This document shows, piece after piece, positions 11,758 to 64,000 of a DNA stretch of 64,000 nucleotides; within the stretch, counting starts at the first letter, position 1; the number at the start of each line of letters is the position of its first letter. The DNA lies in the NCBI GenBank assembly GCA_030710605.1, contig CP092877.1, positions 6,714,395 through 6,778,394 on the forward strand, in the 5' to 3' direction. This DNA is from Cordylochernes scorpioides. Lineage: Eukaryota; Arthropoda; Arachnida; Pseudoscorpiones; Chernetidae. The notes below the pieces were generated by a model that searched no databases, was not told the DNA's origin, and saw nothing but the letters and a program-made list of their open reading frames with translations. Both the position numbers and the translations under genes were made by a program.

Positions 11758-12315
11758 ATATATATGTTGTAAAATGTGCATCCAACATCGTTGCAGTTGG
11801 CTCCTCATCCAACTTGCAGTCATGGGTCAGTACTAGTCCTAAGTCAAAGAAATTACACGCATAGGATAATGTTTCCTCGGTTCAGAGGGAGCACCCGGGA
11901 AGGTGAACTACAGGGAAGTTCTGTAACTGCAGTCCAATACGGGCAGCAGGACGCCCTAACTGCCCCCGATTCCTGTCTGCTGTATAGCCCTTGCTGTCTG
12001 TACAATCCTACTTTGGGCTCGGAAGAAACCCAGCTTATATGCAAATGGTGACGCCAAAGAGGAGGGACCATTTTAGGCGTCTGTATCCAATCAAAGACTG
12101 ACATGGCCGATATGCTTAAGTCCTCCTTGAGCTTCTTGGACAATGTTAACGACCTATTTATTCGATCTTTCTGGGTGTCGCTCCCTTTCCTTCCAGTGGT
12201 AGCTTATTAGACGTTATTTTCCAGTTACATCAGAATTAATTTGAGTTAAAGGTGATCCATCGGGCTTTGTGTTTCTATGTAAAACATTCTTATGTACAAC
12301 ATAACGAAAGATATA
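11758..12315. other. Left-only sequence before the LTR element, no gene recognised
   Basis: This 560 bp is absent from the mirror position. It holds short open frames on both strands (11,776-12,051, 11,853-12,143) without known motifs. It may be part of a larger insertion of which the LTR element is the inner part. Confidence 0.45.
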
Positions 12316-12488
12316 TGTCGCATACCTCGCGACATTTGCATGATATTGATTTGTTTTGTATATTTTTACTTGTATATTTGCATATCCGCGATAAGCGCGA
12401 TGTATATATATAGGTAGAAAAAGTAATAAAGTTAGAGTTTCTTTTGTGTGAAATCTTCTCGTGTTAATTCTTGTCGTAGAACACGACA
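12316..12488 (+). repeat. 5' LTR (173 bp)
   Basis: It is bounded by TG...CA with 5-bp terminal inverted repeats TGTCG/CGACA. A TATA-like run GTATATATATAGG lies at about 12,401-12,413 and AATAAA at 12,425-12,430. I found no difference from the 3' LTR over 173 bases. Confidence 0.93.
12401..12430 (+). promoter_or_regulatory. TATA-like box and polyadenylation signal in the 5' LTR
   Basis: TATATATATA (about 12,402-12,411) would serve as core promoter and AATAAA (12,425-12,430) as the poly-A signal in the 3' copy. The short distance between them implies a very short R region. Inferred from position only. Confidence 0.5.
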
Positions 12489-12491
12489 ATA

Positions 12492-12509
12492 TGGCGCAGC
12501 CGACAGGAT
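12492..12509 (+). promoter_or_regulatory. Primer-binding site, tRNA-Ser type
   Basis: TGGCGCAGCCGACAGG begins three bases after the LTR end. It starts TGG, as expected for pairing with a CCA tRNA end, and resembles the serine-tRNA type site known from several insect gypsy-group elements. The ATG of a short leader frame overlaps it. The assignment to tRNA-Ser is from recollection of the family pattern. Confidence 0.65.
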
Positions 12510-12985
12510 CGACCATGGAAAGTCTCCTCAGGGAAATGGTGGAGCAACAAAGCTTGATGATGAGCATTCTTTATGGAAAAGAGAAAGAAGAATATCTCAG
12601 CGAAGAGGATTACTATGAACAAAAAGAATATCTCAAATATTCAGTTGTTGAAGAGGTAGACGAAGAAGAAGAGATAGAAGAGGCAAATATTGAGTCTCTA
12701 AGAAGTCTTGAAAATCTGAAATCAGGACGTTGGTGAAGCAGACAGGATCGACCATGGAAAGTCTCCTCAGGGAAATGGTGGAGCAACAAAGCTTGATGAT
12801 GAGCATTCTTTGTGGAAAAGAGAAAGAAGAATATCTCAGCGAAGAGGATTACTATGAACAAAAAGAATATCTCAAATATTCAGTTGTTGAAGAGGTAGAC
12901 GAAGAAGAAGAGATAGAAGAGGCAAATATTGAGTCTCTAAGAAGTCTTGAAAAATCTGAAATCAGGACGTTGGTGAAGCAGCAAC
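12492..12985 (+). repeat. Tandem duplication (~240 bp) of the element's leader
   Basis: The segment starting GACAGGATCGACCATGG at 12,502 repeats at 12,741, an offset of 239. The first copy has one A fewer in the GAAAAATCTG word (near 12,710), which throws its frame and ends it at 12,736. The second copy is in frame with the long acidic region. Both encode the same MESLLREMVEQQSLMMSIL start, so the translation start at 12,730 or the internal Met after it is the plausible one. Confidence 0.9.
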
Positions 12986-13599
12986 GTTTGATAATGGACT
13001 TACTTTTCGAAGTTGAAGAAAGTAAAAAATCTCAAGTTGCGAAAAATTCAGTTGTAGAAACGGAAGAAAGTGAAAAGGCCGAAATTGAGAAAAAATCCGT
13101 TGAAGCAGATGAAAGTGAAAAGGCTGAAGTTGAAAAAAATTATGTTGAAGTTGAAGAAAGTGAAAAAGCTCAAGTTGATAAAAAGTCAGTTATAGAAACT
13201 GAAAGTGCAGAGTCTCTTACGAAAGAGGATGTTATTGCTGGTATTGATGCAGATAATGCTGGACTCTGTGATCTTGATGGTGCCACTTTCATTCAAGCTG
13301 GGGAAATTGACAAAGATTCAGAGAATACAGAAGAAATTTCCGATTGCATTATTGATGTTCCTAACACTCAAGCTGGGGAAATTGACAAAGATTCAGAGAA
13401 TACAGAAAAACTTTCTGATTGCATTATTGATGTCCCTGACACCCAAGCTGGAGAAAAAGAACCTAATAAGGAGTCTGGTACTTGCAAAAAAAGAACCAAA
13501 GCCTGGTACCGGCGAAGAAGCTTTGAGAGAGCTACCTTGTTACGATACTCTATTGGAAACTCTCAAAAAAGGAATCTATTCGTTTCAAACAAGCGGTGA
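12730..13599 (+). CDS. Acidic, repetitive leader region of the LTR-element protein
   Basis: This is a 289-residue open frame. The N-terminus contains MESLLREMVEQQSLMMSIL, then a strongly acidic stretch (VEEVDEEEEIEEANIE). Degenerate repeats of ESEKAEVEKKSVE type follow, at roughly residues 95-155. There are also copies of a QAGEIDKDSENTE unit ending CIIDVPNT, at roughly residues 190-245. It is likely disordered or coiled coil, and I recognise no capsid, zinc finger or other gag motif. The frame ends shortly after a run of seven A's (13,486-13,492), where coding continues in another frame toward the kinase-like part. Function unknown; it could be a gag replacement or a host-derived N-terminus. 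Confidence 0.65.
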   Translation: MVKQTGSTMESLLREMVEQQSLMMSILCGKEKEEYLSEEDYYEQKEYLKYSVVEEVDEEEEIEEANIESLRSLEKSEIRTLVKQQRLIMDLLFEVEESKKSQVAKNSVVETEESEKAEIEKKSVEADESEKAEVEKNYVEVEESEKAQVDKKSVIETESAESLTKEDVIAGIDADNAGLCDLDGATFIQAGEIDKDSENTEEISDCIIDVPNTQAGEIDKDSENTEKLSDCIIDVPDTQAGEKEPNKESGTCKKRTKAWYRRRSFERATLLRYSIGNSQKRNLFVSNKR

Positions 13600-14476
13600 A
13601 AAAAGAAATATGAAATTAGGAATAGGTGATTTCGATAAATGCAATCACGTAAGATGTCGTTTGTTAATTTTAAAGGTATTAAAGAAATTAACACGCTGCC
13701 AAAAAGTTTGGATTTATGCTAAAGAATTCAGCCAGATGCAAAAAGGCATGCTTGATAAATACGACATTGGAATGATGCAAATTTCAGAGATAGAAAGTGG
13801 ATTCAGAAGAGAAGCTGAAGGACTTGAGGAATTGCTAACAGCATCCGTACATAATGCTTTTGTAACCTTCGCTGATTTTTTCGAAGGAAAAAGAATGAAA
13901 TATGTAGGAAAAGGTGTCCAATGTATTTGCTATGGTGAAGTCTTATCAAGCGACAGGTTTTCAACTATTTATAGAATTGGACGATTGAATCTAAAAAGAC
14001 GTTCATGGGGACAATCTACTGCTGAAGAATTTGAGGAATATGACATTGATGATTTACGAAATAAATTGGCCATCTACAATTCTTTAAGAACCCTAAAAAA
14101 TGGTCAGATCAATTTATGTTATCCATATTCCTTTATGCTTGTTAAAGATACTGAGAAGACGTTTAGGCTTCTCATAAATGTCTTTGAAAAAGGAAAACCA
14201 TGGCCTTACTATTGTGAAGGAGAACGAAAAAATTATTTTGTTTTCTTAATGGAATATGGAGGAATAACTCTCGAAACGGCTATCAAATCGAGATTTTCAT
14301 GTGAGGATTTATTTGTATTATTTCGCCAGATTTGTATAGTTTTTGCAATTGGTGAAGAGGAAATTGAACTTTTACGTGATGATTTTCATATTAACAATGT
14401 TCTAGTTGCAGAAACAGAAGAGAAACTAATCAAATATGAAGTAGCTTCAAAAAAGATTAAAATCCCAACTCTTTGA
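13205..14476 (+). pseudogene. Haspin-like kinase domain, N-lobe and catalytic loop, inside the LTR element
   Basis: The useful part of this frame starts after about 13,486. A glycine-loop-like segment KYVGKGV...YGEV (near 13,900-13,945) contains a four-residue insertion, QCIC. The hinge reads YFVFLMEYGGITLE (about 14,236-14,277), as in haspins. The catalytic-loop equivalent RDDFHINNVLV (14,375-14,407) corresponds to HRDLHxGNVL of haspins: Asp and Asn are kept, His-Arg is replaced. A spacer ends KKIKIPTL, like the haspin insert before its DFG-equivalent, and is then hit by TGA at 14,474-14,476. Haspin phosphorylates histone H3 Thr3 in mitosis. Activity is doubtful given the stop and altered residues. 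Confidence 0.72.
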
Positions 14477-15229
14477 TATATTGCTAGAGTAATCGATTTT
14501 GGGAATGCCAGGAGTATTAAGGATATAGATTATGGACAAAGGATGATTGGTAAATATGGAAAGAGACCAGGTCCAATTGAGTATTCAAGAAAGAATCTAT
14601 TTATGCTGAGTGGACTCTACTTTGAAATGATAAATATGAGTTTGGAACTTCGTGCAACACTACCTGAACTGCCAAGAGTAACTACATGTCTACAACTGTA
14701 TGGGGGTTTAATTCAAATCTTAAAAGATTTGGCATATCTTAAAGACGTAGGTAAACCAACATCTATAGGACATTTATATGACATGATTCCTAAGTGGACT
14801 AATCCCATGTTATTCGTTGGCAATGAAGACGAACCTTCTGTTTTCTACCAGCATGTTTTCAAGCACGATCGTAGTATGATGTGGTGTGACCAGACTAGAG
14901 AAGCGCTAAAACGTTTGGATTTGCATGATATGAATTTATCTCATTTTGTCTTTTTTCATCCTGAATATGGAGAGAATTATGAAATCCCAGCCAACAACTG
15001 CATTGCTAGGTTGAAAGATTTTGAGATATCTCGACTTGTAGAGAATGATGATCCTAATCCGAATGTTTTTTACGAGAATGTTTCTCAGCTAATTTGGACC
15101 CATAATGAAATGCGAGAATTTAACTCTGCTTATAAAATACATACTGAATTCATTGAAGAGACATCCACGCAGATTGCCGTTGAAGAAAGTCAAGCATCTC
15201 TTTCAGAAACGGAAGCCTTAGATAAGTTG

Positions 15230-15515
15230 GGAGTCCCATATTTCTGGCTAGTTGTCTTGAAGAAAGCTCCTCAGGCCAGCAAGTACATCCAACCCTATGA
15301 CAAGCCTGTTCTGGCATATCTTAAAGATATTCGTGTCGAGAGCTATGAAGGTTCAATGGGATTTTCAATCCATTTTGACTTCGATTCCAACCCGAATCTA
15401 GAGAACGAGACATTGACCAAATCGTATAAGATGAGATGCCTTGTCAAAGGTGGTGTGAGGGTAGGGCCAGAAATCACTGATGTAACCTCGACCCCCATCA
15501 ACTGGAAGCAGGATA
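15230..15515 (+). other. NAP1/SET-like histone-chaperone segment (domain within the cargo)
   Basis: Motif order FWL - LKDI - F.F..N..L.NE.LTK.Y.M - GPEI - I.WK matches the central-to-late part of NAP1 family proteins. The N-terminal dimerisation helix and the acidic C-terminus of NAP1 are not evident. No intron is visible, consistent with capture as RNA. Confidence 0.75.
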
Positions 15516-15640
15516 TAACCATCACCAAGTGGCTGGAGGACAATTGCATCCCTTACACTGTGGAGCCTCTTAAGAAGCCTGTTAAAGAGCGCTATGGTGC
15601 TGGCCACCAAAAGCCTCATCACAGGAGTGATGAGAGGTCA

Positions 15641-15653
15641 TGGAGGGGGAGTC
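15641..15653 (+). promoter_or_regulatory. Polypurine tract before the 3' LTR
   Basis: TGGAGGGGGA at 15,641-15,650 lies three bases before the LTR, in the standard place for plus-strand priming. Confidence 0.75.
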
Positions 15654-15826
15654 TGTCGCATACCTCGCGACATTTGCATGATATTGATTTGTTTTGTATA
15701 TTTTTACTTGTATATTTGCATATCCGCGATAAGCGCGATGTATATATATAGGTAGAAAAAGTAATAAAGTTAGAGTTTCTTTTGTGTGAAATCTTCTCGT
15801 GTTAATTCTTGTCGTAGAACACGACA
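15654..15826 (+). repeat. 3' LTR (173 bp)
   Basis: Identical to 12,316-12,488 over its whole length by base-by-base reading. Confidence 0.93.
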
Positions 15827-16199
15827 ATATATATATGCGCAATAATAATGCTTTCAAATCATTTTCGGTAAAAAAATAAATTGGCCCTTTTAGAACTCCT
15901 AGCATCTTTTGAATATCAATTTTAACCCAAAACTCCGACTCTGTTTAATAATGATGGCCGACTTTTAAATAAGCTATAGTTAAACTTTATTATGAAAATT
16001 AGAAACTATTTTAGACGCGTAAGATTCTTTTTGAAATTAAACAATTTCTACTGCCCTTACTGCAATGGAAAAATTAATGGGAGGGCCTGGCTCATCAGTG
16101 GTGAACCCTCCCAGCGGTTTCGCCAGTTTAACAGATGGCGCGCTATTGCATCGTAATATAAACTTTATTATAATGATTTGAGCTTTTAGATTTAAGCAA
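15827..16199. other. Left-only flank after the LTR element
   Basis: AT-rich non-coding sequence containing one copy of dispersed hairpin repeat H (16,051-16,130). It is not found at the mirror position. Confidence 0.5.
16051..16130 (-). repeat. Hairpin repeat H, copy 1
   Basis: Read on the minus strand it contains GGCGAAACCGCTGGGAGGG, a loop with CTGATGAGCC, then GGCCCTCCC. GGGAGGG and CCCTCCC can pair as a 7-bp stem. Four other copies lie at 53,222, 53,793, 54,999 and 59,004. Confidence 0.75.
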
Positions 16200-36225: not shown

Positions 36226-37065
36226 TTGAGAAAACCTTGGCATTTTAAAATAGCTTTCACCCCCCTCTTAAAATTCACAACTGAAAATGAGTCTAATGGC
36301 TTCCTACCCTTTTTATATATACTTTTCGAAAATAAATTAAATTATCTTCAAAAAAGTGTTTTTAGAAACCCTAGCCACTCACCAGTATACCTCCATGCCA
36401 ACTCCTTTAGGCCTATCTGCCATAAAATTTCCCTTGTGGAACTCTCACCAAACGTGCCTTCACACATTGCTCCACTGATGAACTTAAATATATAGAATTG
36501 AACACTATCCAGGAAGAATCAATATCGAATGGATATACGAAGGAATTTATCAATAAACATTCATATAAAATTAATAGCATTCATAGTAAGAAAGATTTGA
36601 AAAATAAATTTATAATGCCATATGGAGCAGGAGCTGAGAAAATAGCTCATATTTAAAAAAAAATCTGGAATAACCACTGTTTTAAAAAATGCACCATCTT
36701 TAAAGACTATAGTCCGAAATACAATTACAAAGCAGAAAGTGGAGATAGGGAACACAAAAGACGTTGTGTATAGGATCCCATGTAAAAGCTGCAATGTATC
36801 CTACATTGGAGAGACAGGCCGTTTCCTTGGGACCAGACTCCAAGAACACAAATCTTCTTGGAAGTATGCAAAGGAAAGGTTTGCCATGGTGGAGCATGGT
36901 CTCCGATCGGGACATCAGCCAGATTGGGAAAATACTTCCACTATTTACAGGGGCATCCAGAACTCACCCCAGAGGAAGTTCCTGGAGGCCATAGCATCAA
37001 TGAAGGACCCTGCTAGTGTGAACAGATATGAAGAGATCCCCGAACCTTATGTGTCTCTTTTAACT
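36226..37065 (+). pseudogene. Penelope-like element relic: RT end plus GIY-YIG endonuclease
   Basis: Residues NESNGFLPFLYILF and SVFRNPSHSPVYLHANS...HKIS (36,290-36,440) match the conserved tail of Penelope-like RT. After a stop-ridden linker, the frame at 36,739-37,065 encodes VVYRIPCKSCNVSYIGETG then LGTRLQEHK and HGLRSGHQPDWENT. These are the GIY-YIG nuclease landmarks (Y, YIG, R, H, E). The endonuclease part is intact as a reading frame, while the RT body is absent. Old relic, plus strand. Confidence 0.85.
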
Positions 37066-39519
37066 TTTTTTTTATATAATAAACGCAGTCAACTTCTTTT
37101 GTTTCTTATTTTTGTTTCCTTATATTGTGTTTCAAAAACATTTTATAAAATGCTGCATTCTAAAAAGCCGTCAATTTTCATAATATTTTTATTGTATTAT
37201 TATTATTATTAATTTTTTTATGTATTATTATCAATAATTGTTTTTGACCAATGAAAAATTTGTTTTCATGTCATCTACAATAATTTGTGAATTAAATTCA
37301 CTGTGCAATAAATTGATAAAGAGGGAGCAATCTCTCGAAATATTTTGAGAAAAAAAATGTTTTTTTTTTTCTTTACAGATCCAGGTACGCCCTTTTATAT
37401 AATCTTAATTAATGGATCGCCTTTTGACTTAAACTTATAATTAAATTAAATATCTATGTAAAAAAATTGTCTTGGGAATATAGTATTTAGCTTTTGGCTT
37501 TAGAAAAATCTGATCCCCAAAAACTTCTACGAAGGTCTTTATTTTCAAGTTTATAGAACAGTGCTAGCATATGTAGCGCCTAGCATCTGCTTCGAGCACC
37601 AAGTTTGGGCTTTCACCTATTTCTACTGAATAATGTTCTGTTTGCCAACAACCCAGACTCACTTAAAATACCAGAGCACTCGGTTCGTTCTCAACTGTAA
37701 GTTTTCAATATTTTTACATTCAACATCTCTGTTGTATATATGTGTGTATATGTGTGTGAATTGATATAATATCAGGTGTATGTTTGCAGGAACTCTGACC
37801 TCTGGTTATAAATGGACATATTGGTGGACCCTACAATTTATTTTTATAGTAATATTCACTTGAAAATAAATGTATGTCCCTCTTTTTAAGTAATTTAAAA
37901 TGATATAGAAATAACACTATAAATAATTTATTTAGGAAAATCTATAACCTTCAACAAACAATTTTAAATTTATATTTTATCATTTAATGCCCTTTGTAGC
38001 GACTCTATATATATTTTTTGATATTTATTTTAAAAATTAATGTCAATTTATTTATAGAGACGCCTTATATCTATATATAATTTGAATACATTAATATGTA
38101 CATTTCAAATTATATATTACTTTATGTATAAAATATATAGTATAAATATGTTTCAAAATGATATTAATGTTTTATATTAAAATCAATAATTTTATTAATT
38201 TTTAAATTTTTGGAATATAATATATTTTTAATAACATATAAATATAGTTAAAAGATATAAGGTTATTTCAACATATACTAAAATATGCAAAAAAATACTA
38301 ATTCGATTCCTAAAATTACTTCTTAAAAAGTATGTAATCCTATATATATGCGCACCATGTATATTAGTCTAGTTTGTAAAATAATATTTATAAAAGATAT
38401 CTGTGGATTTATTATATATATATAGATTATATAGGACGAAAATATATAACAAAAAAGAGGTATTTATTAAGAAATCAGTCCATCGCTCCAAAATAAACTT
38501 CATTTTCCCCCTGTAATTACAATTTAAAAATAAATAAGATAGCAGCCCCATTTTTAAGACCTGATATATTTATTTTAAACCCCAAAATAATAAATGCTAG
38601 TATTTTCTTGTTATTCCTAGAGAGAATACACTATAATTTTAAAAACTATTATAGGAAGACTTTTAGAGTTTTAATTGCCAGACATTTTTTTTAATCCACT
38701 ATTTCTTGGTGACTAGGATGCCATTTATTTGCTTGTAGATTTTTGTAGACTAATTTTATTCTACTTCCTATTTATATAGAGATCAAAAAAATTCTAGCTA
38801 CTTAGTCTAATAGTTTGAAGAATGTTGTATTTCTCAAAAATATCGCAATATATAATGACATTTAATTTAAAATATTTGAATCATCTAAACGAAAAATATA
38901 TGACCGTTTTTGAACATAATTATTTTTATATATATATAATAAAATATATTAATATACAAGTATTTTAATCCTAATAAAACATCATTTTTTTAAAGTCGTT
39001 GCTTGTATATAGCTTTAAAATATCGATATACAGAAATCTATGGTGAGTTTATCTTCTTAAGATTTTAAAGGGGGAATGTGTTAAATAGCTTCACCTTGAT
39101 ATTTAAAATATAAACTCACTCTCAATAAAATATTCAACTATTTTATTCATAAAATTTGTATCAATAACTTTTAAATATTTTGCTTTTTAATGGGTGTGAT
39201 TTTCAGTCCTCACACAATGTCGAAGCAACTCGAAATATTAAAGAAAATAAATAATCGTATTCTCTAGAACGTAGTGACAAACATTTGCTATAAAATATTA
39301 AATAAGAAAATACGTTAATCTAGCATTGTGACATTTCGAAAGAATTTATCTCCCTTTTAAACAAAATCTTTAAAGTGGACGACATCGGGTCAAAAGTTAA
39401 TTATATCACTTTTCCAGAATGAAATAATTTTATTGATAATAAATGTTTCCCCCCTACAAACATAACTTGATAATAGCAATACTTTCTTACTGGAAAAGGA
39501 TTGAGACATGTCAGCCTAG
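37066..39519. other. Penelope 3' flank, then very AT-rich sequence without genes
   Basis: A hairpin GAGGGA-GCAA-TCTCTC followed by GAAA at 37,321-37,340 lies about 270 bp after the endonuclease frame, a spot where Penelope-like elements often carry hammerhead-related structures. Beyond 37,400 there are many TATATA runs and no coding motif. Confidence 0.5.
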
Positions 39520-42770: not shown

Positions 42771-43238
42771 TTTACAACTATTTAATTCCTAGACAAATCT
42801 AGAGAGAGTTTCGTAGACCTTTTTGAAATTTGTAAACATTGCATTTAGTTGAAGTATAAGTGAAATAAATTACAAAATAGAAATTTAATTCTTAATCGGA
42901 ATCTTATCTATTTCAATAGATAAGTGAATATAAAAATACTGAGAGGAAATAAAAGTGAAGATATACACACCTAGTCAATATTTTTGAAAAAAAAAAAAGA
43001 ATTATAACAGCGCCTTTTTTCTTCAATTTTGTCTTTCAATTTTTTTATTATTATTATTATTTTCAAAATAAATATTTATATAAATAAAATGCTGGTTTAA
43101 ATGCAACACCCTGAAAGAAGCATGCAAATAACATGAAATTTACAACATGCATTAGCGGAGGTGAGATATGCAAATGATTAGAATTCCAGCACAGACGCAC
43201 ATCACGCGCGCCTGTGGCTCCACTTCAAATAACTATTT

Positions 43239-44222
43239 ATGACTTGGAAAGCCTACCGAGATTGTGGATTATCTTTCAGGAAAATCGGTAGTCGTGTTGG
43301 ACGAAACCAAATTACTGTAATGCGGATATGTGATCGTTGGATGCAGGAAGGTACGACGGACCGACGTGTTCGATCGCATCCACCTCAGTGCACCACTTCA
43401 CCTGCTGACAGGCAAATTGTGCGCATGGCAGTGACAGATCGCTCAGTTACATCACGAACCGTAACCCAACACATTCAGTCTGTAACGCATCATTCAGTGT
43501 CTGCGCGTACTATTCGACGCCGTTTACAGCAGAGTGGTCTGTCCGCAAGACGTCCATTGCTTCGTCTACCCTTGACGCACAACCACAGACGTCTCGGCCG
43601 CCAATGGTGCGATGAAAGAAAGATGTGGACGGCAGAATGGAATGAAATTGTCTTTACTGACGAGTCACGCTTCTGTCTGCAACACCACGATGGTCGGATT
43701 CGAGTCTGGCAACACCGAGGAGAGAGGATGCTGAACAGCTGCGTTATGCACCGCCACACTGGTCCTGCACCGGGTATTATGGTATGGGGCGGTATTGGAT
43801 ATCACTCTCGCGCTCCTCTAGTACGCATTGCCGGTACTTTAAACATCTAACGCTACATCTCCGAGGTGTTGGAGCCAGTTGTCCTTCCTTACCTTCAGGG
43901 CTTGCCCACAGCCATATTCTAACAGGATAATGCGCGACTACACGTGGCACACATTGTCCAAAGGTTCTTCGCCAATCGCCAGATTGAATTGCTTCCCTGG
44001 CCGGCAGGCTCTTCGAATCTTTCGCCGATAGAAACCATGTGGTCCATGGTTGCTCAACGATTGACCCAGATTACATCCCCAGCTGCCACACCAGATTAAC
44101 TTTGGCAAGGTGTGAAAGCTTGGTCTGCTGTACCTCAAGAACACATCGAAAGTTTCTTTGAATCAATGCCGAAGCGTGTGGCAGCGGTGATCTCCAACAA
44201 TGGCGGCTACTCTGGCTACTGA
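43239..44222 (+). pseudogene. Tc1-family transposase, full length but with three in-frame stops
   Basis: One frame runs 327 codons from ATG 43,239 to TGA 44,220-44,222, without a frameshift. The N-terminus has the paired-like HTH (AYRDCGLSFRKIGSRVGRN). FTDESRF supplies the first catalytic Asp. QDNARLHVAH and, 34 residues on, SPIETMW supply the second Asp and the Glu (DD34E). Stops interrupt after TLNI (43,850), in AIF*QDN (about 43,921) and TPD*LW (about 44,099). Terminal inverted repeats were not clear. Confidence 0.92.
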
Positions 44223-62455: not shown

Positions 62456-63008
62456 TGAAGAGTCAGGCGCTGATGTAGCAGAGACTATGCCCCGCAGCAG
62501 TCCTAGGGCGATATGTCAATATAATATAGACGTTTGAAGGCCCTGGTGCAGTAGAGACCCGGCAGCAGTCCTAAGGCGGTGACTATAGACGGATGAAGTG
62601 TTAGGATTTGACGTAGCGGACGTAGAAGAGACTCGGCCCCAGGCCCCGCAGCAGTCCTAGGGCGGTGACTATAGACGTTTGAAGTGTTAGGATTTGACGT
62701 AGCGGACGTAGAAGAGACTCGGCCCCAGGCCCCGCAGCAGTCCTAGGGCGGTGACTATAGACGTTTGAAGTGTTAGGATTTGACGTAGCGGACGTAGAAG
62801 AGACTCGGCCCCAGGCCCCGCAGCAGTCCTAGGGCGGTGACTATAGACGTATGAAGTGTTAGGATTTGACGTAGCGGACGTAGAAGAGACTCGGCCCCAG
62901 GCCCCGCAGCAGTCCTAGGGCGGTGACTATAGACGTATGAAGTGTTAGGATTTTACGTAGCGGACGTAGAAGAGACTCGGCCCCAGGCCCCGCAGCAGTC
63001 CTAGGGCG
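62456..63008 (-). repeat. 86-bp tandem array made from the 3' end of the Tmem107-like gene
   Basis: The word GCAGTCCTAGGGCGG recurs every 86 bp (62,651, 62,737, 62,823, 62,909, 62,995). On the minus strand each unit encodes GLLRGLGPSLFYVRYVKS, a stop and some 3' flank. Five units are close copies and about two more, toward 62,456, are degenerate. The unit at 62,923-63,008 is the gene's own terminus. Confidence 0.93.
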
Positions 63009-63400
63009 GCCAGTGCCAGGTCCAGGACGAGGGGCGGCGCGAGGAAGACCAGGAAGTAGCCGAGGAGCAGCCGGCAGTCCAGGGCGGTGCCCTCCAGGTA
63101 GAGCGCCGTGTAGATGATCCCCGCCAGATGGAGGACCGTCGAGAGCAGGGTCTGGCTCGGCTCCAGGGTGGACATCCCGGTCACCAGACAGAGCAGGTTG
63201 AACACCAGCGCCGAGCCGATCGCCGCCATCCACGTGAGCAGGCTTGTCCTCGCTACTGGACTCTCCCCCACCACACAAACGCCTTGAGCCTTTCCACAAC
63301 CACAAGTTGTTTCCACTTCTTCAAGACCCAATCCGATTTGAAAGATAAAGTTTATATGGTAGATCACCAGTATAAATCGAACTAGAATGAACGAGTGCAT
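62945..63400 (-). CDS. Tmem107: Tmem107-like ciliary transition-zone membrane protein
   Basis: Using the Met at 63,400-63,398 the protein is 151 residues, ending at 62,945. It has four hydrophobic segments: VRFILVIYHINFIFQIGL, TWMAAIGSALVFNLLCLVTG, TLLSTVLHLAGIIYTALYLEG and LLLGYFLVFLAPPLVLDLAL. The third follows MSTLEPSQ, as in the GxxMF..xQSLxS signature of TMEM107, and length and topology also fit. TMEM107 is a transition-zone (MKS module) protein. An upstream Met at 63,433 is possible but would add a non-conserved leader. The last ~18 residues lie in the amplified 86-bp unit and look unlike the usual family C-terminus. No intron is visible. Confidence 0.68.
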   Translation of the reverse strand: MHSFILVRFILVIYHINFIFQIGLGLEEVETTCGCGKAQGVCVVGESPVARTSLLTWMAAIGSALVFNLLCLVTGMSTLEPSQTLLSTVLHLAGIIYTALYLEGTALDCRLLLGYFLVFLAPPLVLDLALAALGLLRGLGPSLFYVRYVKS

Positions 63401-63433
63401 TTTAAAATACACCAATTCAGAGTCAAATATCAA

Positions 63434-64000
63434 TTCTTAGAACAAAATTCAATATAAAATAAAATTAAAAACCTTTTGAATATATTAAAATATATATACG
63501 TTTTTTTTTTATTTTCAAACATGTAAAATTTGAAATAAATGGGTTGAGAGAGATTCTATAGATGTTAGCATCATGGCGGAATCCCCTGGGGCCACGCGGA
63601 ATCATACTTCCCATCTTACCCTTGCTTTTAAATTATTTTCTCGTTGAAATGACCTTCAACTAGAATATATTGGCGTTATTGTTTGAGAGACGGTCTCAAT
63701 CAATTGTGGATATCGGAAAATAAAACAAGTATATAACTTTTATTAAAATATGTCTGTGCCCATTTTAGAATTATATTTTCGTTCTAATGACAAATAAATA
63801 AAAGCAAATAAATGGCTTATTTTAAAGAGTAAAAACTTCTTAATAACACACGAATTTATATGAGTTCAAAAACGCCTGGTTTCGATCAGTGTGCCATCGC
63901 AGGCTTCGGTATAATAACATTTCTGCTTCGTGCAAGCAATGGACCGCTTGCTGAACTGAATGGTGACCTTCCACGACCTTCAATACACCAGCGACTTGTA
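63434..64000. other. Upstream of the Tmem107-like gene, no feature recognised
   Basis: AT-rich sequence. No clear promoter element; TATA-like runs at 63,490 are not distinctive. Confidence 0.45.

Follow-up and report, generated by a model that had tools for sequence, protein, structure and literature searches.

What kind of element lies at 12316–15826 of the DNA analysed here (a window of 64,000 nt from the pseudoscorpion Cordylochernes scorpioides), how does it spread, and do the host-like sequences inside it serve any purpose? The original prediction saw a young, non-autonomous LTR retroelement whose only cargo was a haspin-like kinase and a NAP1-like histone chaperone, perhaps acting on nucleosomes. 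The features of the window copy are as follows.

12311..12315, no strand, left target-site duplication ATATA (sequence)
12316..12488, + strand, 5′ LTR, 173 bp (sequence, repeat comparison)
about 12403–12413, + strand, TATA-like run in the 5′ LTR
12425–12430, + strand, AATAAA in the 5′ LTR
12492..12509, + strand, primer-binding site (PBS) TGGCGCAGCCGACAGGAT (sequence)
12492..12714, + strand, tandem duplication of the ORF start, unit 1 (repeat comparison)
12731..12953, + strand, tandem duplication of the ORF start, unit 2 (repeat comparison)
12755..13480, + strand, coiled-coil-like start MESLLREMVEQQ... and acidic 45-bp and 75-bp repeats
13532..13812, + strand, SRR1-derived remnant (similarity to protein P0003)
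13813..14755, + strand, haspin-like kinase domain A (G-loop 13907, HxD-equivalent 14378, DFG 14489)
14915..15145, + strand, tail of a second haspin-like kinase (domain B)
15146..15532, + strand, NAP domain fragment (Pfam positions 62–187 of 266)
15640..15653, + strand, polypurine tract (PPT) ATGGAGGGGGAGTC, directly before the 3′ LTR (sequence)
15654..15826, + strand, 3′ LTR, identical to the 5′ LTR (repeat comparison)
15827..15831, no strand, right target-site duplication ATATA (sequence)

Structure and copies of the element

The predicted structure is present in full. The two LTRs show no differences over 173 bp and have TG...CA ends, and together with the PBS, the PPT and the 5-bp duplication ATATA they make up the set of features that defines an LTR retrotransposon. 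The sequence TGGCGCAGCC occurs once in the window, at 12492, against 0.02 occurrences expected by chance, and the primer for the PBS is presumably tRNA-Ser. Translated stretches of the window interior gave no Pfam match to gag, protease, reverse transcriptase or integrase, in agreement with the description of the element as non-autonomous. An origin of the LTRs as chance repeats is ruled out by the 173-bp identity and by 40 scored LTR matches in the genome, taken from 1627 first-look candidates.

A copy count, which the original prediction had proposed, revealed a multi-copy family. Of 19 LTR pairs, 18 were fetched and examined (all but C5:63582267), and all 18 two-LTR copies contain host-derived cargo. 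The 5-bp target duplication is perfect in 17, and the remaining copy matches at 4 of 5 positions. Thirteen LTR pairs have no substitutions and five have one, bearing out the proposed youth of the element; gap columns (1–4) are found in four of the 18 pairs. Across the genome there are 450 occurrences of the PPT plus LTR-start pattern (the 3′ end signature) and 221 of the LTR-end plus PBS junction, while the controls for both gave 0. One PBS-to-PPT spacing of 5.98 kb (C1:219880526–219886506), a candidate location for an autonomous partner with the same LTRs, is known from coordinates only.

On contigs C1 and C2, matches were classed as element type or host type by their profile range. Eight of ten element-type NAP fragments lie 65–157 bp upstream of a 3′ end, and three of four element-type SRR1 matches are near one; the exact pattern is absent nearby for the other two NAP fragments and the other SRR1 match. 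The corresponding counts for host-type SRR1 and host haspin-like matches are 0/5 and 0/13. Of the 70 3′ ends on these two contigs, 60 lack a NAP or SRR1 match among those listed. Six NAP matches were set aside as host-like (C1:142578215, C1:142578048, C2:51969735, C2:51969577, C2:52059787 and C2:52060328).

The composite reading frame and its host-derived parts

The element interior consists of one reading frame that begins inside the primer site, where the start codon (ATG, 12491–12493) overlaps the PBS, and runs to the 3′ end. The encoded modules are, in order, a coiled coil (judged by eye) with acidic repeats, the SRR1 remnant, a haspin-like kinase, the tail of a second kinase, and the NAP fragment. 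Matches to the ORF start were found in all 17 other copies, which were searched for cargo domains and long frames only. Seven of the 18 copies, from three subfamilies, keep the frame open and code for 749–1007 aa. In the window copy the frame is broken by a TGA at 14474–14476, within kinase domain A, and the frames also disagree near 13485 and across the 5′ tandem duplication (unit 223 nt, spacing 239 bp, 98% identity between units). Single-sequence structure prediction of P0001 was uninformative (mean pLDDT 32). The SRR1 part, the second-kinase tail, the 5′ duplication, the frame breaks and the size of the family all lie beyond what had been predicted, and the first two show that haspin and NAP are not the only cargo.

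The stretch that contains the SRR1 remnant is 68% identical to residues 240–383 of P0003, and residues 315–431 of that protein match Pfam SRR1 with E=4.8e-12; the remnant in the window copy itself receives no SRR1 score from Pfam. The domain B tail shows, over 68 aa, 88% identity to P0003 and 91% to P0004, both of which possess a longer domain B. The middle of this domain is deleted at HPEYG/ENYEIP, a junction present in 18/18 copies.

Among eight matches to a single stretch of the kinase, haspin, at E=0.043, was the one named kinase. A profile built from four element kinase sequences found haspin first in PDB (E=5e-10), the next kinase following at 1.8e-3, which upholds the haspin-like assignment. 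The proposed HMM search gave a divided result: the NAP fragment matches PF00956 strongly (E=1.1e-28), confirming that part of the cargo, but Haspin_kinase matches are weak: each of the four element members gives one at E no greater than 1, the lowest being 1.7e-4, that of member 1 falls below the curated cut-off, and the single kinase stretch of the window copy has no Pfam match. In the kinase tree, likewise proposed beforehand, domains A and B are sisters (100/99) among 19 host haspin-like loci, left after 11 of 30 had been removed as near-duplicates. By sequence the element kinases are related to haspin. In both domains the usual catalytic Lys of the N-lobe is replaced by Arg; Lys is kept in all 12 aligned host genes, chosen from the 30 fetched. 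The NAP fragment is 34–39% identical to three host NAP genes and covers the domain core only. With Arg at the catalytic Lys in both kinases and no complete NAP domain, an action on histones is unsupported, and the protein is unlikely to be active as a histone kinase or chaperone.

The source families are themselves large. At least 113 haspin-like and at least 150 SRR1 matches were found in the host genome, many of them clustered, and some SRR1 and haspin-like genes are neighbours. The host haspin-like genes compared belong to this large family and may not include the canonical H3T3 kinase. Such numbers might suggest that LTR sequences had inserted into members of a host multigene family, with no mobile unit at all. 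This is extremely improbable, as it is contradicted by the 18 copies, which are dispersed, have an LTR at either end and show target duplications, and by the absence of element DNA from all 30 fetched host haspin-like loci. The latter result, with the absence of 3′ ends near host haspin-like matches, also rejects the idea that the element includes the host haspin genes.

Much the likelier explanation is a non-autonomous family of pseudoscorpion LTR retrotransposons that carries a composite, captured host ORF and is mobilised in trans. The element RNA would be primed at the PBS beside the 5′ LTR; copying and integration would be performed in trans by the enzymes of another LTR element. In place of gag-pol there is one composite ORF derived from host genes (SRR1-like, two related haspin-like, and NAP). 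Its host parts were probably acquired in the distant past, when reverse transcription switched template to host transcripts. SRR1 and haspin may have been captured partly as a single unit, because such genes adjoin in the host. Later deletions would have produced subfamilies with differing sets of modules, the frame staying open during the spread.

Frame maintenance and possible roles of the cargo

Within the explanation of a trans-mobilised family, the ORF can be read in two ways. The captured transcripts may be mere ballast, with the open frame reflecting recent expansion, or RNA quality control that degrades RNA with an early stop, and not any protein function; we consider this quite possible, at somewhat below an even chance. 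It agrees with the replaced catalytic Lys in both kinases, the repeated deletion of modules, and the occurrence of broken copies with identical LTRs, the window copy among them, which suggests that broken elements move too. Amino-acid constraint points the same way, since purifying selection was not detectable by site count among the copies compared (L043 and L049 excluded). With an expected synonymous share of 0.25, shared variants comprised 30 synonymous, 78 non-synonymous and 2 stop changes (p 0.50), and singletons 11, 45 and 2 (p 0.44). Against ballast, the kinase and NAP parts are still recognisable despite only about 21–39% identity to host genes. In addition, a comparison of two open copies from different subfamilies shows 14 gaps, all of them multiples of three, which exceeds what ballast needs, though the selection of open copies itself biases the result towards in-frame gaps; in 11 broken copies compared with an open relative, 31 of 41 gaps are not multiples of three. 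Assembly errors may account for some of these breaks: of 27 one-base gaps (L031 and L045 excluded), 14 fall in runs of four or more, against a background of 9%. Three other open cross-subfamily pairs have gaps that are not multiples of three (L033–L038, 7/11; L033–L040, 7/11; L038–L042, 2/22), but these adjoin large deletions, where we think the DNA alignment probably splits a single gap.

Alternatively, the composite protein may serve the element, for example with the coiled coil and acidic part substituting for Gag, and the kinase-like and NAP parts binding chromatin or nuclear import partners. The single ORF maintained in seven copies of three subfamilies and the conserved frame would fit such a role, as would a whole-ORF dN/dS of 0.50–0.62 between subfamilies, but that value is driven by the poorly aligning repeat region, and kinase A alone gives 0.62–1.59 from 2–5 synonymous changes. 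With the kinase Lys lost, NAP truncated and modules dispensable, a working protein seems rather unlikely. The predicted action on nucleosomes fares poorly for the same residues and truncation, and for the lack of detectable purifying selection. Also unlikely is the most far-reaching proposal, in which an animal LTR lineage swapped gag-pol for a translated, selected and modular host-derived protein (SRR1, haspin-like pseudokinase and NAP core) that aids the element on chromatin, and still trades modules with two expanded host families.

Comparison with known elements

Among the matches listed, no open-access title describes an LTR element with SRR1, haspin and NAP sequences. LARD and TRIM elements have LTRs, a PBS and a PPT, lack pol, are mobilised in trans and are typically non-coding. 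The pseudoscorpion element resembles them in its LTRs, PBS and PPT and in lacking a pol match in the window copy, and differs in its ORF, which reaches 1007 aa. In acute transforming retroviruses a host kinase, which is active, stands in place of viral genes and is moved in trans. The replacement of element genes by host kinase sequence, and the probable movement in trans, are similar here; those viruses, unlike the pseudoscorpion family, are not known to form germline families. Bdelloid rotifer LTR elements also show ORF capture in an animal, with modular acquisition of enzymatic ORFs (ORF3), but they keep gag and pol, the captured ORF being additional (PMC5408684).

The closest known system appears to be Bs1 of maize, a low-copy element with a gag-like part. 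This LTR retroelement is reported to contain segments of three host genes, forming a chimeric gene (PMC13317346). The pseudoscorpion element is alike in that pieces from three host gene families are, judged from their similarities, fused in one frame. The published example found of multi-gene capture by an LTR element is from a plant; the family described here is from an animal, has captured different genes, is large, and varies in cargo by subfamily, and two of the gene families that it drew on are large ones in this host. Its hundreds of 3′ ends, near-identical LTRs and frame still open in several subfamilies make it a test case for two questions: is a captured host ORF ballast or a working part, and how do LTR elements and host gene families exchange pieces?

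LTR structure and the composite reading frame

The element at 12316–15826 in the window belongs to a multicopy family of LTR elements that carry a composite reading frame and are flanked by target-site duplications. Its two LTRs show no difference from each other, and because they are identical, the insertion is recent. ATATA is present on both flanks, an AT-rich duplication that is weak evidence taken alone; distinctive 5-bp duplications are found at other copies (TGGGG, AGTTT and TATCT). The window is C15:6714395-6778394 of a 2.62-Gb assembly. Three protein searches gave 6, 4 and 2 hits; every one of the 7 distinct proteins among them carries the species label Cordylochernes scorpioides, which is probably the host.

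Features of the window
12316–12488, first LTR
near 13485, A run at which the frames of the element disagree
14474–14476, TGA breaking the frame of the element
15654–15826, second LTR
36646–37212, open frame, by eye resembling a Penelope-like GIY-YIG end
43233–43850, open frame, by eye resembling a Tc1/mariner transposase
62859–63436, minus strand, open frame resembling a multi-pass membrane protein, possibly TMEM107-like

An LTR search of the genome (40 matches scored among 1627 candidates) made 18 pairs visible, and a 19th, on contig C18, was completed by fetching. Eighteen of the 19 pairs (the window copy and 17 fetched) were examined, and all contain host-derived cargo between the LTRs. The target duplication is perfect in 17 and matches at 4 of 5 bases in L032, while the LTR pairs carry no substitution in 13 copies and one in five. 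Three other fetched loci (L047, L048 and L050) have one LTR each and no cargo match. Genome-wide, the LTR end followed by the primer-binding site (PBS) occurs 221 times and the polypurine tract (PPT) followed by the LTR start 450 times; both reversed controls gave 0.

The ORF starts at an ATG within the PBS (ATGGCGCAGCC) and ends at the interior end or inside the 3′ LTR. Its modules are, in order, a coiled-coil-like start, acidic repeats, an SRR1 remnant, a haspin-like kinase (A), the tail of a second one (B) and a NAP core. The SRR1 part was identified via protein P0003 (E = 4.8e-12). Kinase B is longer in P0003 and P0004; its middle is absent from the window's LTR family, and the deletion junction (HPEYGENYEIP) was found in 18/18 copies. 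The ORF is open in 7 of the 18, and the genome table has further long frames, such as 1021 aa at C5:63584809 (table entry only).

Lengths of the open ORFs
L033, 1007 aa
L042, L043 and L049, 974 aa
L039, 834 aa
L038, 833 aa
L040, 749 aa

The window copy is broken despite its identical LTRs: besides the TGA and the disagreement at the A run, a 5′ tandem duplication puts the first ATG out of frame. In broken copies, 14 of 27 one-base gaps lie in runs of at least four, against a background of 9% of bases, so assembly errors or slippage of the polymerase may account for some of the breaks.

Module loss and maintenance of the frame

Subfamily iii (L041–L046 and L049) is without the kinase A N-lobe, in subfamily ii (L037–L040) this N-lobe is likewise missing, together with the SRR1 core and some of NAP, and most of kinase A is gone in L034 and L036. 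The module junctions inspected are located at short shared words, which we infer to be what template switching would leave; the host parts would have been captured in this way.

The frame holds between two subfamilies, whose members L033 and L042 differ at 245 of 2581 bases and by 14 gaps, all multiples of three. When broken copies were set against an open relative (11 comparisons), 31 of 41 gaps had lengths not divisible by three (Fisher p = 4.5e-7), a contrast biased by the open copies having been chosen. The picture is less clear where subfamily ii is involved (7/11, 7/11 and 2/22 gaps not multiples of three). There is fair evidence in these alignments that source elements stayed open while spreading, and the gap comparison is no evidence that the amino-acid sequence is important. 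Synonymous changes are not in excess among shared or singleton cargo variants, stop-changing variants number 4 of 168 (4.9% expected), and for kinase A the pairwise dN/dS ranges from 0.62 to 1.59, calculated from 2 to 5 synonymous changes.

Other cargo and host relatives

On contigs C1 and C2, the PPT/LTR signature lies within 3 kb downstream of 8/10 element-type NAP fragments and 3/4 element-type SRR1 matches, and of 0/5 host-type SRR1 matches and 0/13 host haspin-like loci. These contigs hold 70 such 3′ ends, so the matches counted here would account for the cargo of a minority of them. Judged by their coordinates alone, two sets of matches appear to belong to the same element family: NAP fragments that begin at profile position 100, often with an SRR1 match just upstream, and SRR1 matches that lie in frames of up to 1124 aa without a NAP match. 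A candidate autonomous relative, from coordinates only, is C1:219880526-219886506, where an LTR/PBS pattern and a PPT/LTR pattern stand on one strand with 5.98 kb between them. In a further cargo class, an SRR1 match and a NAP fragment about 100 bp after it share a frame of 645–767 aa, with no listed kinase.

Sites of the SRR1 and NAP cargo class
C14:40807248-40807955
C24:93913623-93914330
C20:20403471-20404178

Haspin_kinase matches above the cut-off number at least 113 in the genome (112 of 588 candidates scored), SRR1 matches at least 150 (150 of 236 scored) and NAP matches 91 (139/139 scored); the NAP matches include many element-type fragments. Many of the haspin-like matches are clustered single open frames of about 320–450 aa (L051–L080; e.g., C5:43.1-44.1 Mb, C5:50.6-51.0 Mb, C3:147.2-147.4 Mb and C17:75.78-75.83 Mb), with several fetched pairs 93–99% identical over >1.4 kb. 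Many SRR1 matches are likewise clustered, in single open frames of about 240–380 aa (e.g., C5:21.9-22.6 Mb, C15:85.06-85.13 Mb, C3:146.35-146.54 Mb and C4:18.0-18.1 Mb), and at six places host genes of the two kinds lie about 1.3–3.1 kb apart.

Neighbouring SRR1-like/haspin-like host genes
C5:43182999/43185249
C5:43976886/43978539
C5:44072516/44074169
C5:44012359/44008616
C5:43912550/43908746
C18:46606158/46608420

In a tree with 19 host loci, kinases A and B are nearest to each other (100/99) and group with L071, L075, L078 and L079 (93/88), a placement that is unsure because both are long branches. L071 and L078, among the nearest host kinases, map to C5:43-44 Mb. Between the NAP part of the element and three host NAP genes, identity is 34–39%, so either the captures are old or rates are high. 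Both kinase A (L033) and kinase B (P0004) carry Arg at a position that is Lys in 12/12 aligned host genes, and both retain the HxD and DFG aspartates; we infer that kinase activity has been lost.

Comparison with known systems

The accessory domains named in PMC6338049 include a chromodomain and an exonuclease, with "kinase" occurring 0 times in that text. Rotifer LTR elements with a captured ORF3 keep gag and pol, according to PMC5408684. The window element would be mobilised in trans. Maize Bs1, as described in PMC13317346, works like the window family, which differs from it in host, cargo and the shuffling of its subfamilies.
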